This document shows, piece after piece, positions 9,584-34,776 of a stretch of 35,463 bases of DNA. The position numbers were made by a program, and so were the translations under genes. The DNA is from a virus. The DNA lies in IMG/VR virus record IMGVR_UViG_3300021962_000316, positions 1 to 35,463 of that record; one strand, written 5' to 3'. Under the pieces are notes generated by a model, which saw nothing but the letters and a program-made list of their open reading frames with translations, ran no database searches and had not been told where the DNA came from. The stretch's first letter is position 1, and each line of letters opens with the position of its first letter.

Positions 9584-9970
9584 TTATAAGTCTTTAACCT
9601 TATCGACTTTATCCCAATAGTCGTCTGGTACTATATTGGAACAATTTGGATCATGCTGTGGTCCAAATATTTCCATGACTTCGCCATCTAAATCACGTAA
9701 TGCAAACACACAATAGTATATTGTATTATCTTCTAACGCTGTTATTGCGTGTTTCTGTTCTTTGCGAATGATGACAAATGTAGGAGCAGTAAACTCTTTA
9801 GGTTCTTTGCCTTCTACTTCAACTTTAATTTTACCAGATGTTAACAATGATATATGGTCAAACTTATGTTTGTGACCTCCAGCAGTTTCGCCGGCTTTGC
9901 TTAAAACATTTTGTCTGACCCAAATGTTACCGAAGTAACCCATTTCAAATAATTGCGGTCCTGCACTCAT
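9584..9970 (-). CDS. Cupin-fold protein, copy 1 (128 aa)
   Basis: The segment GGHKHKFDHISLLTSGKIKV fits cupin motif 1, with His of H-x-H and a third His, and KEQKHAITAL fits motif 2 with its His. Together they could bind one metal ion. The N-terminal MGYFGNIWVRQN block is shared with the copies at 30245 and 34381. All three lie beside tail-fibre genes. The start is in an ATGA overlap with the 9967-10395 gene. A metal-dependent enzyme or a structural accessory is possible; the substrate is unknown. Confidence 0.75.
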   Translation of the reverse strand: MSAGPQLFEMGYFGNIWVRQNVLSKAGETAGGHKHKFDHISLLTSGKIKVEVEGKEPKEFTAPTFVIIRKEQKHAITALEDNTIYYCVFALRDLDGEVMEIFGPQHDPNCSNIVPDDYWDKVDKVKDL

Positions 9971-15478: not shown

Positions 15479-15942
15479 ATTTTCTCCACTTCAATGTTAC
15501 ATTTATTTAAAAATTCTATACCTTCAGTATTTCTATAACTATTTCTATAAAATACTTTTTTAATGCCTGCTATATGTATAAGCTTTGCACAATCAAAACA
15601 CGGTGCATGGGTAATATACATTGTAGCACCTAACCCCGATTCATTAGATTGTGCTAGTTTGCCGATAGCATTCATTTCTGCATGAATAACCTCGGGCTTT
15701 GTCTTTGTACTAATAGTAGTTGTAGGATACTCAGGGCCACCCATGTCAATTATATATGTTGAATGTTCTTCAATTATATCTTCACAAGTATTATTCCAAC
15801 CAGCAGGAGTACCGTTGTATCCAATAGATATAATTCTATTATCTTTCTCAACAACAGCACCAACCTGTAATCTTTTAGCAGAGGATAATTTAGCATAGGT
15901 CTCTGCTACAATTATATGAGCATTATCAAATTTATTCGGCAT
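15475..15942 (-). CDS. dCMP deaminase (155 aa)
   Basis: HAE at residues 87-89 and APCFDCAK with Cys115 and Cys118 are the zinc-binding and catalytic motif of the cytidine/deoxycytidylate deaminase family. GYNGTPAGWNN near 41-51 is typical of dCMP deaminase and its substrate loop. It converts dCMP to dUMP, the substrate of ThyX. Start chosen at ATG 15942, where AAGGAAAATGG is a strong ribosome site; an upstream extension to 16029 would overlie the Zn-finger gene. Confidence 0.9.
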   Translation of the reverse strand: MPNKFDNAHIIVAETYAKLSSAKRLQVGAVVEKDNRIISIGYNGTPAGWNNTCEDIIEEHSTYIIDMGGPEYPTTTISTKTKPEVIHAEMNAIGKLAQSNESGLGATMYITHAPCFDCAKLIHIAGIKKVFYRNSYRNTEGIEFLNKCNIEVEKI

Positions 15943-16111
15943 TCCATTTTCCTTCGGGGCATTTTGTATTAGGCAATAATGTCTTTGCCCATATAGAGCA
16001 ACCACATTTATTACATACCTTAGCACCAATTATAGTAGTAAGGTGTTCACATTCATTACAAATATTTCTTCGTCTTTCGACAAAAGTTATTACTTTTCTA
16101 TCTTCACCCAT
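15932..16111 (-). CDS. Four-cysteine zinc-finger protein (59 aa)
   Basis: A 59-residue frame with ICNECEHL, KVCNKCGCSIWAKTLL and a C-terminal KCPEGKW. The same layout (C-x2-C, C-x2-C-x-C, K, C-P-x-x-x-W) recurs in the protein at 32032-32235, so the two are paralogues. Such small proteins are known in T4-type phages without firm function. It overlaps the HiPIP-like gene and the dCMP deaminase start. Confidence 0.7.
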   Translation of the reverse strand: MGEDRKVITFVERRRNICNECEHLTTIIGAKVCNKCGCSIWAKTLLPNTKCPEGKWNAE

Positions 16112-16302
16112 TTTTTACAATAATATTCTGGACGTACTTTAGCGTCCCAAGTTTTACAATACTTTGTGCCAGGTACATAAGCACCGCAGTTTGCACAATT
16201 CTTTTCACCCTTTGCTTTTTCATAAGCTGGTGGCAATTTTGCTGATATTAACGCACCATCAGCATAGTGTCTCGGTGCGATTACTTCTTTAAATGATTTC
16301 AT
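16090..16302 (-). CDS. HiPIP-like four-cysteine protein (70 aa)
   Basis: The C-terminal half carries CANCGAYVPGTKYC, then KTWDAKVRPEYYCKKW. The spacing C-x2-C-x9-C-x12-C closely follows high-potential iron-sulfur proteins, including the Val and the Y-C-x2-W end; the usual Gly before the aromatic is Tyr here. HiPIPs carry one 4Fe-4S cluster and shuttle single electrons. No signal peptide is seen, so it would stay in the cytoplasm. Its ATG is at 16302, overlapping the nrdB stop by 4 bases. It could instead bind zinc. Confidence 0.65.
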   Translation of the reverse strand: MKSFKEVIAPRHYADGALISAKLPPAYEKAKGEKNCANCGAYVPGTKYCKTWDAKVRPEYYCKKWVKIEK

Positions 16303-17291
16303 TTTTGTTTTGCCCAAACATCTTCCCAGTTACCTGTGTGCGCGGCTTTTGCGTAATCTGTTGCTCTATTCTCAAAGAAGTTTGTGTGAATAGGAGCGTT
16401 AATCATTTCCTCAACCCAAGGTAGCGGATTTCTTTTAACTTTCATAATACCCTTAAGACCAAGGCTAATAAGGCGACGATCAGTAATATAGCGGATGTAC
16501 TGTTTAACGTCATTAGCGTCCAAATTGTCCATAGGCCCCATAGCGAATGCCAGATCAATAAACCGGTCCTCGAGTAAAACCATTTGTTCAGCAATTGTAT
16601 ACAGTTGGCCTTTGAGGTCATCGTTCCAAATCTCCGGATTTTCTTGTATATATGTTCTGAATAATTTAATCATGGACTCACAATGCTGAGTCTCATCTAC
16701 AATAGACCAAGTAACAATTTGTCCCATGCCCTTCATCTTACCATGACGAGGGAAATTCAACAACATAATAAAAGAACTAAACAACTGCATACCTTCAGTA
16801 AATGCTGAGAAGATAGCAATATGCTTTGCTGTATTTTCTTTTGTAGTGTTTTGTTGAGATATATCCAAGACATAGTCATGCTTAGCTTTCATTTCCTCAT
16901 AAGCTAAAAACTCATTATACATTGTCTCGGGCAATCCCAATGTCTCAATCAAATGAGAATATGCTGCAATATGCAGAGCTTCGCGTGCTGCAAAGCCTAA
17001 TAGCATCATTCGTATTTCTGGCTGAGGAAAATAAGGAAGGTAGTTATTGACATACCCGCCAGCAACATCAATATCACCTTGTGTAAAGAATCTAAAGATG
17101 TGTGTTAAGAATTGTTTTTCTTCAGTCGTTAACTTCTTTTTCCAATCTTTAACATCTTCTACCATTGGTACTTCAGTATGCAACCAATGGGATTGCTCAT
17201 GCTTCAACCATGCGTCATACGCCCACGGGTAATTAAAGGGTTTGAAAGAATCTCGTGTATCTGTAAGATTCGATTTTGTCTTTTTAATCAT
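16299..17291 (-). CDS. nrdB: Ribonucleotide reductase small subunit, class I (330 aa)
   Basis: All metal ligands can be placed: Asp73, Glu104, His107, Glu166, Glu200 and His203, with the radical Tyr111. They line up with the E. coli NrdB residues by constant offsets (11, then 38). The protein supplies the tyrosyl radical for reduction of ribonucleotides together with NrdA. It starts in an 8-base overlap with the thioredoxin gene, so radical protein and reductant are coupled. Some segments are shorter than in E. coli. Confidence 0.95.
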   Translation of the reverse strand: MIKKTKSNLTDTRDSFKPFNYPWAYDAWLKHEQSHWLHTEVPMVEDVKDWKKKLTTEEKQFLTHIFRFFTQGDIDVAGGYVNNYLPYFPQPEIRMMLLGFAAREALHIAAYSHLIETLGLPETMYNEFLAYEEMKAKHDYVLDISQQNTTKENTAKHIAIFSAFTEGMQLFSSFIMLLNFPRHGKMKGMGQIVTWSIVDETQHCESMIKLFRTYIQENPEIWNDDLKGQLYTIAEQMVLLEDRFIDLAFAMGPMDNLDANDVKQYIRYITDRRLISLGLKGIMKVKRNPLPWVEEMINAPIHTNFFENRATDYAKAAHTGNWEDVWAKQK

Positions 17292-17532
17292 TGATGAACT
17301 CTTCTACTAAGTTTTTAGCTTTTACGCCTACCATCTTATTTAATACTTGACCATTCTCATCAAGTTTAACAAGTGTCGGCACTCCCCTGATACCATATTT
17401 CATTGCTAACGCTTCATTATCATCTATATCAACAACTTCAATAGGTACATTGGAATCAATGCCTTCCATAATACTTGCCAATGCTTTACATGGTTGGCAC
17501 CATGATGCTGTAAATCTTATTACTTTATTCAT
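17284..17532 (-). CDS. Thioredoxin/glutaredoxin-like protein (82 aa)
   Basis: ASWCQPCK (Cys12 and Cys15) is the active site of a short thioredoxin-fold protein, and GIRGVPTLV contains the cis-Pro. Ordinary thioredoxin is about 105 residues with WCGPC, so this is a short variant. GGAGAATAAAAAA precedes ATG 17532. Its position next to nrdB indicates that it is the dithiol reductant for the phage ribonucleotide reductase. It could also serve the Fe-S proteins nearby (inference). Confidence 0.9.
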   Translation of the reverse strand: MNKVIRFTASWCQPCKALASIMEGIDSNVPIEVVDIDDNEALAMKYGIRGVPTLVKLDENGQVLNKMVGVKAKNLVEEFIND

Positions 17533-17546
17533 TTTTTTATTCTCCG

Positions 17547-17870
17547 TTAAATCGAAAATGAAGAGCCACATCCGCAAGTTGATTGCGCATTTGGATTTGT
17601 TATTTTAAATTCAGATCCCTGTAGATCTTCCTTATAATCTATACTTGCACCTTGCAAATACTGCATACTCATTGCATCAATTAAAACTTTACAATCGCCC
17701 AAAGGCACCTCGAAGTCATCTTCGTTCATTATTTCATCAAAGGTAAATCCATAACTAAACCCAGAACATCCCCCACCCTGCACAAATGTTCTTAGTTTTA
17801 AATTAGGATTGCCCTCTTCTGCGAAAAGATCTAATATTTTTGCTTTTGCTGATTCTGTTATTGTTATCAT
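17547..17870 (-). CDS. erpA: A-type iron-sulfur carrier, ErpA type (107 aa)
   Basis: Cys35 in [11 protein letters not shown] and Cys99/Cys101 in [16 protein letters not shown] are the three cluster ligands of A-type carriers. The C-terminal block is nearly identical to that of bacterial ErpA, and an LQYL-like MSMQYLQG segment agrees. It receives an Fe-S cluster and delivers it to target proteins. ATG 17870 is in an ATGA overlap with the iscA stop. A GTG/TTG extension to 17897 is not supported. Confidence 0.9.
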
Positions 17871-18193
17871 ACTCGAAAACTTTCTCCGCAACCACAACGG
17901 TCACGTTCATTTGGATTTTTAAAATCAAAGCCTTCATTGAGTCCATTTCGAACCCAATCCATTGTTAGTCCATTTAGATACACATCATTTTTTTTATTAA
18001 CAAGAATAACAAAGTCTTGCTGTCCATAATTAATACAGGTATTATCATAATTATAATTATCAACATATTCTAATGTGTATGCAAGTCCACTGCAACCAGT
18101 AGTCTTCACGCCCAATTGAATTCCAACTCCTTTGCCGCGTTTTTGAAGTAGAGTTTTAATTTTCTCGCGTGCTTTTTCAGTAAGCAAAATCAT
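17867..18193 (-). CDS. iscA: A-type iron-sulfur carrier, IscA type (108 aa)
   Basis: Cys34 in [16 protein letters not shown] and Cys100/Cys102 in [16 protein letters not shown] fit IscA, with the same spacing as E. coli IscA within one residue. The sequence differs clearly from the ErpA-type neighbour, so these are two distinct carriers rather than a fresh duplication. It overlaps the end of iscU by 17 bases, so IscU, IscA and ErpA are made from one message. Confidence 0.9.
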
Positions 18194-18569
18194 GTTTTTT
18201 TCTATAATCTTCTACTGCCGCTTTGATTGCATCTTCGGCAAGTATTGAGCAATGTATCTTTACTGGGGGCAATGCTAGTTCTTCGGCGATTTCGGAGTTT
18301 TTGATTGATCCGGCTTCGTCAAGGGTTTTTCCTTTGACCCATTCTGTAATGAGGCTCGAACTCGCAATAGCCGATCCGCAGCCATACGTTTTAAATTTTG
18401 CATCTGTAATAATACCTGTATCATTGTCAACCTTTATTTGTAGTTTCATTACATCGCCGCAAGCTGGCGCGCCAACCATACCAGTACCAATATCATTATC
18501 AGTCTTATCAAAAGATCCGACATTCCTGGGATTTTCATAGTGATCGATTACTTTATTTGAGTATGCCAT
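18177..18569 (-). CDS. iscU: Iron-sulfur cluster scaffold IscU (130 aa)
   Basis: Cys37 and Asp39 in GAPACGD, Cys64 in YGCGSAIASSS and His106-Cys107 are the cluster-binding set. LPPVK at residues 100-104 is the HscA-chaperone recognition motif. The positions differ from E. coli IscU by at most one residue. It assembles 2Fe-2S clusters using sulfur from IscS, which is not encoded here and must come from the host along with HscA/HscB. It follows nrdA after 2 bases. Confidence 0.95.
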   Translation of the reverse strand: MAYSNKVIDHYENPRNVGSFDKTDNDIGTGMVGAPACGDVMKLQIKVDNDTGIITDAKFKTYGCGSAIASSSLITEWVKGKTLDEAGSIKNSEIAEELALPPVKIHCSILAEDAIKAAVEDYRKKHDFAY

Positions 18570-18571
18570 GG

Positions 18572-20383
18572 TTAACCTTCACATGCTAAACAAACGTCTT
18601 CGGTTGCTAATGCTTTCAAGTCAATCTCTTCCATGACTTGTCGCTCTATTTTCTTTGATATCTTATCTGCCTTACCAATCTTTTCTGAACGGCAATAGTA
18701 TAATGTCTTTAAGCCTTGTTTCCACGCTTGAAAGTGAACAGCATGGATATACTTAATATTACTATCGGGTCTAAAGAATAGATTAACAGATTGTGCTTGA
18801 TCTATATACTGTTGTCTATCTGCAGAATGTTGAACAACCCAACGCTGGTCAATTTCCATAGATGTTTTAAATACTTCTTTATCCCAATCAGACAACCAAG
18901 TTAAATGCTGTACCGATCCATCATTAGCAATAATTGAAGACCAGATATCATTGTAGTCATTTTGTGATACTGTACCACTGTCACTTGAAAGATGCTTTTC
19001 AATAACTCTATTTAACCATTTGTTTTTGTTGAGCATTGAACCCGATAAAGTATCTTGTCTATATGCGTTCGCACGAAGGGGCTCAATAGAAGGGGAAGTA
19101 TTACCCATAATGATAGAAGAAGAAGCGTTTGGAGCAATAGCAAGCATATGAGAGAAGCGGCGTCCAGTACCTGCCGCATCGGGTGCTTCGCCTCTTTCGG
19201 TACCCAATTGAATATTTGCATTATCTAGTTCCTTGCGAATGTGACCGAATATCTTATGGTTCAATCCTGTTGCTGATGCCGATTCCCATGGGATGCTTTT
19301 CTTTTGTAAAAGAGCATGCCAACCGAGAGCACCAATACCAATAGACCGTTCGCGAATAGCAGAATATCGTGCGCGTGATATGCTATCAGGAGCATTATCA
19401 ATGAAATACTGCAAGACGTTATCGAGCATCTCTGCAACGTCCCGAAGAAAAAGTCTGTCATCTTTCCAATCATCGTAATACTCCAAGTTCAAAGAGGATA
19501 AGCAACATACCGCAGTACGATCTTTATCCGTAGGTAAAATAATTTCACTGCACAAATTAGATTGTTTAATACTTAGTCCCAGTTTCTTTTGGAACTCAGG
19601 CATTGCTCTATTGCTACTATCAATAAAATGTAGATAGGGCTCACCTGTTTGCATACGCATATCTAAAATACGTTGCCATAATTCTCTTGCTGACACTTTA
19701 TCTCTAACTTCGCCATTGTGAGGATCTTTTAATTCCCATGTGTCATCCATCTCGGGATCAATCATTGCACGTTCAATTAAATGCATAAAATCATCAGTGA
19801 TATTAATACCGTGATGCAAATTCAAACAACGCATATTGGGATCGCCTGTTGGCTTTCTCATCTCTAGAAAAATAAGAATGTCCGGATGAGAAATATCAAG
19901 ATAAGCGGCATAGCTACCACGACGAGTCCTACCTTGTCTATAAGCGAGAGATGATGCGTCATATGTGCGAAGGTGGGGCATGACTCCAACCGATTTATCA
20001 TCCGATGAACGTATTCCGATACCAATTCCAACTCCTCCACCCATCATGGATAACCAATTTACTTCGGCCAGACAATCGACCAAACCTTCTGCACTATCAT
20101 GTAGATAAGGTAAAAAACATGATATAGGAAGGCCACGCTTACTACGCCCAAAGCTGAGAATAGGAGTAGAATAAGACAACCAATGTCTACTGCTGTACTC
20201 ATAAAGTCTTTGCGAATGTTCTCGATTTGACCCGAACGTCTTGGAAACATATGCGAACCTTTCTTGCGGTGAGACCTCATCCTCCTTCATATAGCTTTCT
20301 TTTAATCTTTTAATACCTAGCTCGTCAAATAGACTATCTCTAGAATAGTCGACATTAATCCCATGCACAATTTCTTGCGTCAT
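18572..20383 (-). CDS. nrdA: Ribonucleotide reductase large subunit, class I (603 aa)
   Basis: Catalytic residues can be read directly: Cys89 (PISCFLP) and Cys293 (AVCCLSS) as the redox pair, Asn276, Cys278 and Glu280 in NLCSE, Tyr562-Tyr563 in TLYYCRSEK for radical transfer, and Cys598/Cys601 at the C-terminus. E. coli NrdA has 761 residues; the N-terminal ATP-cone is missing here, so allosteric activity control by dATP is probably lost. It reduces NDPs to dNDPs with NrdB. TTGGAGTAAAG precedes the ATG. Confidence 0.95.
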   Translation of the reverse strand: MTQEIVHGINVDYSRDSLFDELGIKRLKESYMKEDEVSPQERFAYVSKTFGSNREHSQRLYEYSSRHWLSYSTPILSFGRSKRGLPISCFLPYLHDSAEGLVDCLAEVNWLSMMGGGVGIGIGIRSSDDKSVGVMPHLRTYDASSLAYRQGRTRRGSYAAYLDISHPDILIFLEMRKPTGDPNMRCLNLHHGINITDDFMHLIERAMIDPEMDDTWELKDPHNGEVRDKVSARELWQRILDMRMQTGEPYLHFIDSSNRAMPEFQKKLGLSIKQSNLCSEIILPTDKDRTAVCCLSSLNLEYYDDWKDDRLFLRDVAEMLDNVLQYFIDNAPDSISRARYSAIRERSIGIGALGWHALLQKKSIPWESASATGLNHKIFGHIRKELDNANIQLGTERGEAPDAAGTGRRFSHMLAIAPNASSSIIMGNTSPSIEPLRANAYRQDTLSGSMLNKNKWLNRVIEKHLSSDSGTVSQNDYNDIWSSIIANDGSVQHLTWLSDWDKEVFKTSMEIDQRWVVQHSADRQQYIDQAQSVNLFFRPDSNIKYIHAVHFQAWKQGLKTLYYCRSEKIGKADKISKKIERQVMEEIDLKALATEDVCLACEG

Positions 20384-22732: not shown

Positions 22733-23749
22733 TTAACACCTCTTCCATGATACGAATTTCATTTTTGCTTCTAGACCATTATATATGTTCTTCTTAATTA
22801 TGTTCAATGGTTCTTTGCCCGTTAACACAATATCATTAATATCTTTTTCTTCTAAAGTCTGCGGCCATACAACAATATTATAATTGCTATTGATAGCTTT
22901 GTCTATAATTTTACAAACTTCTTTGTTTCTAGGTTGGTTGTCAAAAATAACAACTAATCTTTCTTTTGGAATGCCCAATGAATCTAGTTTACCAAATGCT
23001 GTACCTGCAACCGCAATACAATTTGGAATGAATAAACTATCAATAGGACCCTCAACAACATAAACCTTTTTGTTCTTATCCACAAAATCTAAACCAAATA
23101 TAAATGGTTTATCATCATTGATCTTAATAGTAACATATCTTAAAGATTCGCCTCTTAGGGCTCTACAAGTTACACCAACTAATAAACCTTTTTCATCATA
23201 GAAAGGAATAACCAATCTGGGTTCTTTGGTCTTTAATGTGTCTTTATACTTGTCCGATAATTGTTCTATTTTTCTAATGTCGTCGACAAAGTATAACTGT
23301 TTAAATTTTTCTCTTGGGATTTTTCTTTTTAAACAAAACTGCACTGCTTCATTATCATCGGGCAATTTATCTAAACGGTCAAGTAATTCATCTAATAAAT
23401 TTTTTGGTTCAAACACAGGCGCAGCCATTTTAAATTTATCTTCAACCTTTTGATGCGGTTTATTTAATGGCAGACCTTCACTATATCGTTCCATAGTATA
23501 TTGATTATACATCAAAGAGTCCATTTGTTTTAAGAATGACCCAAAGTGTAATGATGCATCGCAGTTATGACATTTATAAAACAAATCGTTTTTAACGGCA
23601 TAAAAGTACCCACGCGTTTTATTCTTTTTTGAAGAAGAATCTCCGCAAATGGTACAACGACAGTTATACAGATGGTCGTTCTTTTGTTTGAACAACGGCA
23701 ACCGATTACTGATTAATTTTAAGTATTTAAGATCAAGAAATAAAGACAC
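22733..23749 (-). CDS. DNA primase, T4 gp61 type (338 aa)
   Basis: A Cys knuckle pair CTICGDSS (about 33-40) and CHNCDASL (about 60-67) forms the zinc-binding domain. A TOPRIM-like core follows: VYVVEGPIDSLF near 230 with the catalytic Glu, and LVVIFDNQPRNK near 266 with Asp. It makes RNA primers for lagging-strand synthesis. The start is GTG at 23749 with GGAG 7 bases upstream, buried in a hairpin. No ATG lies before the zinc finger, so the GTG is convincing. Confidence 0.9.
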   Translation of the reverse strand: MSLFLDLKYLKLISNRLPLFKQKNDHLYNCRCTICGDSSSKKNKTRGYFYAVKNDLFYKCHNCDASLHFGSFLKQMDSLMYNQYTMERYSEGLPLNKPHQKVEDKFKMAAPVFEPKNLLDELLDRLDKLPDDNEAVQFCLKRKIPREKFKQLYFVDDIRKIEQLSDKYKDTLKTKEPRLVIPFYDEKGLLVGVTCRALRGESLRYVTIKINDDKPFIFGLDFVDKNKKVYVVEGPIDSLFIPNCIAVAGTAFGKLDSLGIPKERLVVIFDNQPRNKEVCKIIDKAINSNYNIVVWPQTLEEKDINDIVLTGKEPLNIIKKNIYNGLEAKMKFVSWKRC

Positions 23750-30244: not shown

Positions 30245-30706
30245 TTAGATTAATATCCAATCGTTAGTATCTTTATCCCATTCATATAAATTACCATCCA
30301 TTGGATATGGTTTATTCGCAACATCGATACTTAGTTCTTCTAATTTTTTACGTCTTTCCCAATACTCAGGATGAACATCGTTAATAAAATATGGACGTGA
30401 TGTTTCTGGTACTATGTCAGATACATCGCCATCTACATCTCGTATAGCAAAAACACAGTACCAAGCTACATTGTCTGTTATTGCTTTAAATTTATGAGGC
30501 TTTTCTTTTTTAATAACAATGAATGTGGGCGCAGTAAAAGTTCTAGGAGGATTGCCTTCTACTTCAACTTCTACTGTGCCGCTAACCAATAAACTCACAT
30601 GATCAAACAAATGATAATGACCTGATGTTTCATCACCTGCATTCTGTAATTCATTTTGTCTTACCCATATGTTGCCAAAATAACCCAAGTCATGTCGTTT
30701 TCTCAT
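30245..30706 (-). CDS. Cupin-fold protein, copy 2, with fused aromatic tail (153 aa)
   Basis: Start chosen at ATG 30706 (MRKRHDLGYFGNIWVRQNEL), preceded by AGGATAAAT; a longer frame to 30745 overlaps the previous gene. SGHYHLFDHVSLLVSG and KEKPHKFKAI supply the cupin His residues. Beyond the cupin, the last 20 residues (YPMDGNLYEWDKDTNDWILI) are the aromatic motif of the 28108/30709 family, so this copy is a fusion. It lies between those genes and the double adhesin. Confidence 0.75.
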   Translation of the reverse strand: MRKRHDLGYFGNIWVRQNELQNAGDETSGHYHLFDHVSLLVSGTVEVEVEGNPPRTFTAPTFIVIKKEKPHKFKAITDNVAWYCVFAIRDVDGDVSDIVPETSRPYFINDVHPEYWERRKKLEELSIDVANKPYPMDGNLYEWDKDTNDWILI

Positions 30707-30708
30707 AT

Positions 30709-31098
30709 TTATCCTAAAATTGCAACATTGGGCATTTCCACCCAATCTTTAATATCTTCATCCCATGCATAAAATTTACCATCTGTTCCATTATATTTTG
30801 ACGGAACAGGTGGTTCCCACCTGCAAGTATTTTCATTTAAAATCCAACTAGGATATAACTTAGGTGGAATAAATGCATCTCTGCCTTCATCATATGTATA
30901 ACCTATACCTGCAGTGTTTTTTCTAAATCTTTGAGTAAAACTAGATTGTACCCATTTTTTGCTATTCGGCCATAGTGTTTTACAAAACTCTATTCCTTTT
31001 TGTTCGCTTTCAACGCCATCAACAATGATATCAGAATTGTTTATCGCTACAATTTGAATTACAACATTGCTCTCGTCAACTTCTGCAAAATTTGCCAT
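30709..31098 (-). CDS. Conserved tail-locus protein with aromatic C-terminal motif (129 aa)
   Basis: Begins MANFAEVDESNVVIQIVAIN and carries KNTAGIGYTYDEGRDAFIPP, WILNENTCRWEPPVP and GKFYAWDEDIKDWVEM. It is a clear relative of the 28108-28467 protein. GTGAAAGGATTATAG precedes the ATG. It stops 2 bases before the cupin start, so the two are probably co-translated. Confidence 0.75.
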   Translation of the reverse strand: MANFAEVDESNVVIQIVAINNSDIIVDGVESEQKGIEFCKTLWPNSKKWVQSSFTQRFRKNTAGIGYTYDEGRDAFIPPKLYPSWILNENTCRWEPPVPSKYNGTDGKFYAWDEDIKDWVEMPNVAILG

Positions 31099-34377: not shown

Positions 34378-34385
34378 TATTTATA
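34378..34385 (-). promoter_or_regulatory. T4-late-type promoter
   Basis: A perfect TATAAATA on the minus strand, 28 bases before ATG 34349, in the AT-rich gap after the cupin gene. It matches the box at 14570 in sequence and spacing. It would start late transcription of the fibre/lectin genes to its left. Confidence 0.6.
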
Positions 34386-34776
34386 TGTCAAGCTTTAATT
34401 GTTTTTCCCAATAATTATCTCTGCAACCTCTAGCAGATCTAGGATCATGCTGCTCGCCGTAAATATCTTCTATTACTTCACCATCTAAATTTCGCAATGC
34501 AAAAACACAGTAATAAATTACATCGTCTTCCAAAGCTACAATTTGATGTTTTAATTCTTTTTTAATTACTATAAATGTGGGAGCAACAAACTCTTTTGGT
34601 TCTTCGCCCTCGACACTTACCAACACACTACCTTTAACAAGCATTGTAACATGGTCAAAGTAATGACGATGCCCATCTTGCGCCTCACCTTTTTTATCAA
34701 GTCTATTTTGTCGTATCCAAATATTACCAAAATAACCAAGATCAGTATGCTTATTGTTTATAATTGGTTCTGTCAT
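34381..34776 (-). CDS. Cupin-fold protein, copy 3 (131 aa)
   Basis: GYFGNIWIRQNRLDKKGEAQ, DGHRHYFDHVTMLVKG and KKELKHQIVAL repeat the blocks of the 9584 and 30245 cupins, with the His set intact. The tail with GEQHDPRSARG is like that of copy 1 (GPQHDPNCSN), so copies 1 and 3 are closer to each other than to copy 2. It lies next to the truncated LamG gene and before the late promoter. Confidence 0.75.
   Translation of the reverse strand: MTEPIINNKHTDLGYFGNIWIRQNRLDKKGEAQDGHRHYFDHVTMLVKGSVLVSVEGEEPKEFVAPTFIVIKKELKHQIVALEDDVIYYCVFALRNLDGEVIEDIYGEQHDPRSARGCRDNYWEKQLKLDI

Follow-up and report, generated by a model that had tools for sequence, protein, structure and literature searches.

The iscU, iscA and erpA genes analysed here probably form a functional, translationally coupled cassette of large tailed, T4-like environmental phages, which supplements the ISC system and works with partner proteins of the host. 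As judged from sequence comparisons, this cassette moves between phages by recombination, as a unit or nearly so. The window, that is, the whole stretch of DNA under analysis, is the virus record IMGVR_UViG_3300021962_000316 (35,463 b). On its minus strand, an operon runs in the order nrdA, iscU, the gene for an IscA-type carrier, erpA, trx, nrdB and a four-Cys ORF, with most of these genes overlapping (Table 1). The first-pass annotation had placed the three genes side by side between nrdA and the trx-nrdB pair; all three ORFs are confirmed there, with strand and positions unchanged. Coordinates and sequence agree that the iscU ATG follows the nrdA stop codon after 2 bp, that iscU and iscA overlap by 17 bp and that iscA and erpA overlap by 4 bp. 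The 14-bp gap between erpA and trx holds a GGAG ahead of trx. The ATG at 17870 is the likely start of erpA, the TTG at 17897 being the start of a mechanical ORF only. The WCQPC active site of the thioredoxin stands where thioredoxins usually have WCGPC.

Table 1. Features of the RNR operon and its cassette in the window (positions count from the first letter of the window)
Feature	Position	Strand	Description	Evidence
nrdA	18572-20383	-	class I RNR large subunit	NF006577 743 bits, cut-off 620
iscU	18177-18569	-	Fe-S scaffold, 130 aa	TIGR01999, Pfam NifU_N, residue census
IscA-type A-type carrier	17867-18193	-	108 aa, C34/C100/C102	PF01521, TIGR02011 best, PDB 1s98
erpA	17547-17870	-	107 aa from ATG, C35/C99/C101	NF010147, PDB 2apn
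cassette segment	17533-18571	-	1,039 bp, nrdA stop to trx ATG	absent from related loci
thioredoxin (trx)	17284-17532	-	WCQPC active site	Pfam PF00085 5e-16
nrdB	16299-17291	-	class I RNR small subunit	NF007186 443 bits, cut-off 237
four-Cys ORF	16090-16302	-	70 aa, HiPIP-like (tentative)	overlaps nrdB; top two PDB profile matches HiPIPs

Each of the three proteins has a clear family. IscU scores 225.4 bits against NCBIfam TIGR01999 (cut-off 192.4) and matches Pfam NifU_N with an E-value of 1.3e-55; its closest PDB match is 1q48, a NifU-like/IscU entry. ErpA, scanned in the TTG-extended frame, scores 163 bits against NF010147 (cut-off 117) and is closest to 2apn (HI1723). For the middle protein, the best model is IscA (TIGR02011) and the closest PDB entry is 1s98 ('yfhF'); since its 127.7 bits lie below the equivalog cut-off of 150.6, it is called an IscA-type best match rather than a certified IscA equivalog. 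The best NCBIfam E-values of all three proteins are 2e-37 or better, which leaves no room for chance matches as an explanation. Both carriers match PF01521 and contain the C and CxC cysteines. The proposal of two A-type carriers thus stands for ErpA and for the family membership of both, while the IscA label holds as a best match only.

Residues C37, D39, C64, H106 and C107 of IscU and its LPPVK sequence (100-104) are intact in 158 of 158 phage rows, and the three cysteines of the carriers are kept in all 158 IscA-type and all 108 ErpA phage rows. These counts cover full-length matches, the window included, with same-contig duplicates kept and partial genes left out. The five IscU residues and the carrier cysteines are taken to be cluster ligands, and LPPVK is presumably the chaperone motif. 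Together with the TIGR01999 score, the census bears out the description of the scaffold as one with every ligand and the LPPVK motif. Between the window and its relative L001, dN/dS is 0.044 for iscU, 0.064 for iscA and 0.049 for erpA, in the same range as the flanking nrdA (0.092) and nrdB (0.040); other cassette comparisons with a finite dS give 0.02-0.33. Low dN/dS and conserved ligands together suggest that the trio encodes working proteins.

Among 50,697 deposited phage records there are only 17 matches to IscU, 11 to ErpA and 10 to IscA, some of which look like bacterial host DNA. Environmental viral contigs contain at least 598 relatives of IscU and 321 of ErpA. The trio, which had been put forward as unusual, is therefore common in environmental viral contigs and rare only among the deposited records. 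The loci compared were the best 80 of the at least 598 IscU matches, the best 80 of the 321 ErpA matches and all 55 four-Cys loci, every set being chosen by likeness to the window proteins and so favouring the context of the window. The resulting 210 viral loci lie on 199 distinct contigs once 11 same-contig repeats are dropped, with near-identical contigs kept separate; many contigs are fragments, and gene absences set lower bounds on presence. All three genes occur on 83 of the 199 contigs, iscU with iscA on 60, iscU alone on 8, iscA with erpA on 7, erpA alone on 5 and iscU with erpA on 2; the remaining 34, all from the four-Cys scan, carry none. Tight trios, with gaps of at most 100 bp, are found on 52 of the 199 contigs. 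A search for other phages sharing the iscU-iscA-erpA order (UAE) had been proposed, and 37 of these 52 have it, alongside 10 with EUA, 4 with UEA and 1 with AEU. In the ErpA set, IscA is present at 76 of 80 loci and both IscU and IscA at 70; of the ten lacking the full pair, six keep IscA, three of these being no more than 250 bp from a contig end. In the IscU set, IscA accompanies 72 of 80 loci and ErpA only 12. Thus iscU and iscA are commonly paired, with ErpA as an extra gene that is rarely seen by itself. At L130, L132, L222 and similar loci, extra sequence lies between iscU and iscA or between iscA and erpA, as if genes had entered the cassette.

Related phages provide sites in which the cassette is missing. 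At seven junctions read directly (L085, L086, L089, L092, L094, L095 and L136), the nrdA stop codon is followed after 2-3 bp by the trx ATG. Altogether nrdA directly precedes trx, without the 1,039-bp segment, at 13 loci, some of them near-copies of each other. These empty sites come from the 23 of 55 four-Cys loci that have nrdB and no isc gene in view; among the others, L135 has 526 bp of different sequence between nrdA and trx, and in nine the sequence in view does not reach nrdA or trx. Compared with L001 in 150-bp blocks, the cassette of the window is 95-100% identical and its trx-side flank 77-83%, whereas the same flank is 93-95% identical to those of the cassette-less L085 and L136. 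The nrdA-side flank displays no clear difference (95 and 89% to L001, against 89 and 91% to L085 and L136). Between the window and L001, dS is 0.30 for iscU, 0.06 for iscA and 0.08 for erpA, compared with 0.47 for nrdA and 0.80 for nrdB, so that the iscA-erpA part clearly postdates the flanking genes, which for iscU is less evident. A trx side shared with cassette-less phages, and a cassette shared with others, point to recombination having moved the cassette, whole or nearly so. The empty sites may represent the ancestral state or may reflect losses. As related phages run without it, the cassette is dispensable.

The partner proteins of the ISC system are almost wholly absent from these loci. 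When the proteins of the isc operon of Limnohabitans (locus L150) were used as queries against the 210 viral loci, each bounded by contig ends or by 6-10 kb of flank, IscR, HscB and Fdx gave no match, IscS a single weak one (28%) and HscA a single HscA/DnaK-like one. A complete ISC system near the scaffold is therefore not what these loci hold, desulfurase and HscAB being all but missing, in line with the original description of a trio lacking these genes. Supply of the desulfurase by the carrier phages themselves was also considered and rejected: Aminotran_5, the desulfurase-type fold, has weak matches in only 2 of 30 larger viral records, one of them below the cut-off.

Trees had been suggested as a means of finding the donor group. 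In the IscA tree, 95 phage rows lie on one side of a branch with an SH-aLRT of 100, against 94 bacterial rows; in the ErpA tree, 59 phage rows lie on one side with a moderate SH-aLRT of 85, against 29 bacterial rows. The IscU tree has two label changes and is poorly resolved because IscU is too conserved. All are quick searches over 107-130 columns with few resolved forks, and they contain long branches (bacterial L352, L354 and L344 for IscA; phage L118, L114 and L006 for ErpA). Their bacterial rows are mainly Burkholderiales, and two of the 29 ErpA rows (L324, L326) are of a divergent paralogue type. The nearest bacterial IscU sequences, in the best 80 among the matches listed from species genomes, are from Burkholderiales or unspecified beta-/proteobacteria and are 84-89% identical; the best ErpA match in 29 such genomes is 52-73% identical in 28 and 33% in one. 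The trio is read from these data as a phage-side lineage of probable proteobacterial ancestry, alongside which other phage lineages may exist, as the rows were selected by the window. The IscA and ErpA groups thus argue for exchange between phages over fresh capture from a present host, which is not favoured because the phage IscA group stands apart. A betaproteobacterial host for the window phage is plausible.

The window is phage DNA and no host chimera. A second contig, of 68 kb, overlaps positions 6068-35463 at 99.98-100% identity and runs on into long tail-fibre-like genes. The ORF at 22733-23749 encodes a phage DNA primase (PHROG 47) matched in 2,382 phage records, the top rows being Methylophilales phage Melnitz (42%), Pelagibacter phage Mosig (41%) and Synechococcus phages (40-41%), all of which we take to be T4-like. 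That the trio might be host DNA, in a chimeric contig or beside a prophage, gains some colour from the likeness of window IscU to that of Burkholderiales; nevertheless, this has virtually no chance of being correct. The Limnohabitans operon runs iscR-iscS-iscU-iscA-hscB-hscA-fdx, with ErpA on another contig of the genome (G038), the phage IscA group is separate from the bacterial rows, and many other viral contigs carry the trio, as does the overlapping 68-kb one. The chimera or prophage that could have undone the claim of a phage-borne module accordingly does not apply. Elsewhere in the window, three look-alike small proteins (9584-9970, 30245-30745 and 34381-34776) share GYFGNIWVRQN or GYFGNIWIRQN and FDH; they sit amid tail-fibre-like genes and are cupin-like by eye only.

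It is proposed that host IscS and ferredoxin would load phage IscU, that host HscA and HscB would unload it through LPPVK, and that phage IscA and ErpA would then carry the clusters to apo-proteins. In this way the phage might redirect host cysteine desulfurase, as the first-pass annotation inferred. Expressed alongside the RNR genes in infected cells, the cassette would keep Fe-S proteins matured as host expression falls. The docking to host partners, the timing and the clients are what we infer here. Candidate clients are respiratory enzymes of the host, radical-SAM proteins of other carriers and, more tentatively, the four-Cys protein of the same operon; family profiles identified no established Fe-S client in the scanned window proteins. 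Of 30 records of carriers or relatives, 13 have radical-SAM matches, 12 of them over the cut-off, with a maximum of 19 in a 347-kb record; PDDEXK_1 is matched in 6 of 30. G004, a 222-kb relative whose RNR operon contains the trio, has six radical-SAM matches, two over the cut-off, and the close, incomplete relatives G001 and G002 have none, nor any to PDDEXK_1. The iscU-bearing viral contigs L039 (346,856 b), L065, L063 and L040 have 9 to 19 radical-SAM matches each. At 160 loci, the protein clusters that recur up to 2.5 kb from iscU or iscA include NrdB (44), NrdA of the window type (27), a PD-(D/E)XK nuclease (26), the four-Cys protein (19), glutaredoxin (17) and a radical-SAM protein (10), the nuclease, glutaredoxin and radical-SAM clusters each being identified from one representative.

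The four-Cys protein is tentatively HiPIP-like. Its four cysteines are invariant in the 13 members aligned from the 55 loci found, and an unguided PDB search put two HiPIPs on top, with E-values of 0.032 and 0.36 from the single sequence and 0.009 and 0.15 from the profile. In an hhalign comparison with five bacterial HiPIPs the cysteines are in register, but the match is weak (E 0.017, probability 2.7%). The 70-aa ORF has no listed match to Pfam HIPIP (PF01355) at E-values up to 5, a range in which speed filters drop most matches above 0.1; it has no Pfam family over the cut-off and no PHROG match, and its AF2 model (pLDDT 52) is unusable. A zinc site is an equal alternative to an Fe-S cluster in this protein. 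As its gene is present at the empty-site loci, it may be at most one client of the cassette. The gene is also seen in contexts with no RNR in view (L098, L104). A regular-expression search for HiPIP-like proteins in the IscU loci returned 18 matches beyond the window and L001, which by eye looked like frame noise and were discarded. Next to the four-Cys ORF, a 59-aa Cys-rich ORF (15932-16111) is DUF6171-like below the cut-off and matches PHROG 13558; it has a relative in all nrdB-bearing loci of the four-Cys set except L136, whose contig stops there.

The position of the cassette invites the idea that it chiefly keeps class I RNR active, through a YfaE-type [2Fe-2S] ferredoxin or by giving iron to NrdB. 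YfaE ferredoxin has a role in maintaining the diferric tyrosyl radical, a subject reportedly treated by Wu in 2007, and Ding reportedly described in 2004 that IscA supplies IscU with iron under scarcity of the free metal. Among the 104 loci flanked on each side by at least 1.5 kb, the distance from an isc gene to nrdA or nrdB is at most 100 bp at 23 and at most 1.5 kb at 28, in several orders and in two RNR families whose NrdA proteins are only about 23% alike. By an informal estimate, this is more than chance placement among the 100-200 genes of a genome would give, but the sampling favours the window context. Window NrdB aligns a tyrosine with the phenylalanine of Chlamydia R2, which is presumably the class Ic distinction, and thioredoxin or glutaredoxin genes recur as neighbours. 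On the other hand, at the search sensitivity applied, 76 of the 104 loci show neither nrdA nor nrdB up to 1,500 bp from an isc gene, the same nrdA-trx-nrdB operon runs without the cassette in related phages, no ferredoxin family was found among the window proteins scanned, and choosing loci by likeness to the window favours just this context. RNR service as the main purpose thus seems unlikely. Also unlikely is a portable, phage-evolved Fe-S line for DNA-precursor supply, entering unrelated class I RNR operons repeatedly and maturing a ferredoxin and the HiPIP-like carrier, such that the RNR radical is kept under iron shortage.

The near absence of partner genes means that the phage proteins would need to dock on host machinery, which would also suit a decoy: IscU and the carriers might titrate host IscS or clusters and so shut down host Fe-S metabolism. 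Yet all full-length phage rows retain the ligands and LPPVK, and two downstream carriers would be superfluous in a decoy, making this explanation very improbable. A working supplement to the host ISC system remains the preferred reading. It gathers the scattered accounts of single phage Fe-S assembly genes into one mobile cassette of three genes that can be recognised and whose empty sites are known, and the matched phage backgrounds with and without it make the purpose of phage Fe-S assembly testable. Were the cassette to serve RNR, phage DNA synthesis would be tied to host iron-sulfur metabolism.

Fe-S assembly genes are already established as part of the viral gene repertoire. The available text of PMC5332604 describes 16 marine viral genomes, 14 with an A-type carrier and six with IscU, so that at least four must have both; the combination of scaffold and carriers, which the first-pass annotation took to go beyond known single genes, had thus been published, even within one genome. 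As in the window, these are iscU and/or A-type carriers in tailed phages, T4-like ones included, and they are read there as serving host and viral Fe-S proteins. Unlike the window, a contiguous IscU with two typed carriers, a site in an RNR operon or empty sites do not figure in that text, and its IscU is placed with gammaproteobacterial (SAR86) homologs, whereas window IscU is nearest to Burkholderiales among the matches listed. HMO-2011-type phages likewise have iscU and erpA in one phage group, but the accessible part of PMC9038755 neither names an IscA-type gene nor states that the two share a genome. Excerpts of other reports mention sufA in two genomes of the OM43-phage group (PMC10580990), a protein for Fe-S cluster biosynthesis in Nitrospirota viruses of Lake Baikal (PMC7678222), transcripts of the HesB/IscA/SufA family in viromes from Baikal (PMC9611531), an iscA ORF on viral contigs associated with Chlorobium (PMC8226683), Fe-S cluster auxiliary metabolic genes credited to Pacific viromes (the review PMC6359870) and Fe-S cluster protein genes of this kind beneath the Ross Ice Shelf (PMC10721903). 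A contiguous trio as a cassette present in or missing from an RNR operon was not found among the matches listed from open-licence PMC literature on phage Fe-S genes and HiPIPs, as far as the accessible portions go.

Phage C48C1 (OQ984149) shares with the window an IscU that is 75% identical, but its record has no IscA or ErpA match. The bacterial isc operon (L150) has iscU followed by iscA, of the same families as in the phage, together with iscR, iscS, hscB, hscA and fdx, and erpA lies on another contig. The phage trio, in contrast, has erpA beside iscA and none of those five genes. Set against these systems, the trio is no new kind of system; it is a richer, mobile form of a published type of auxiliary gene.
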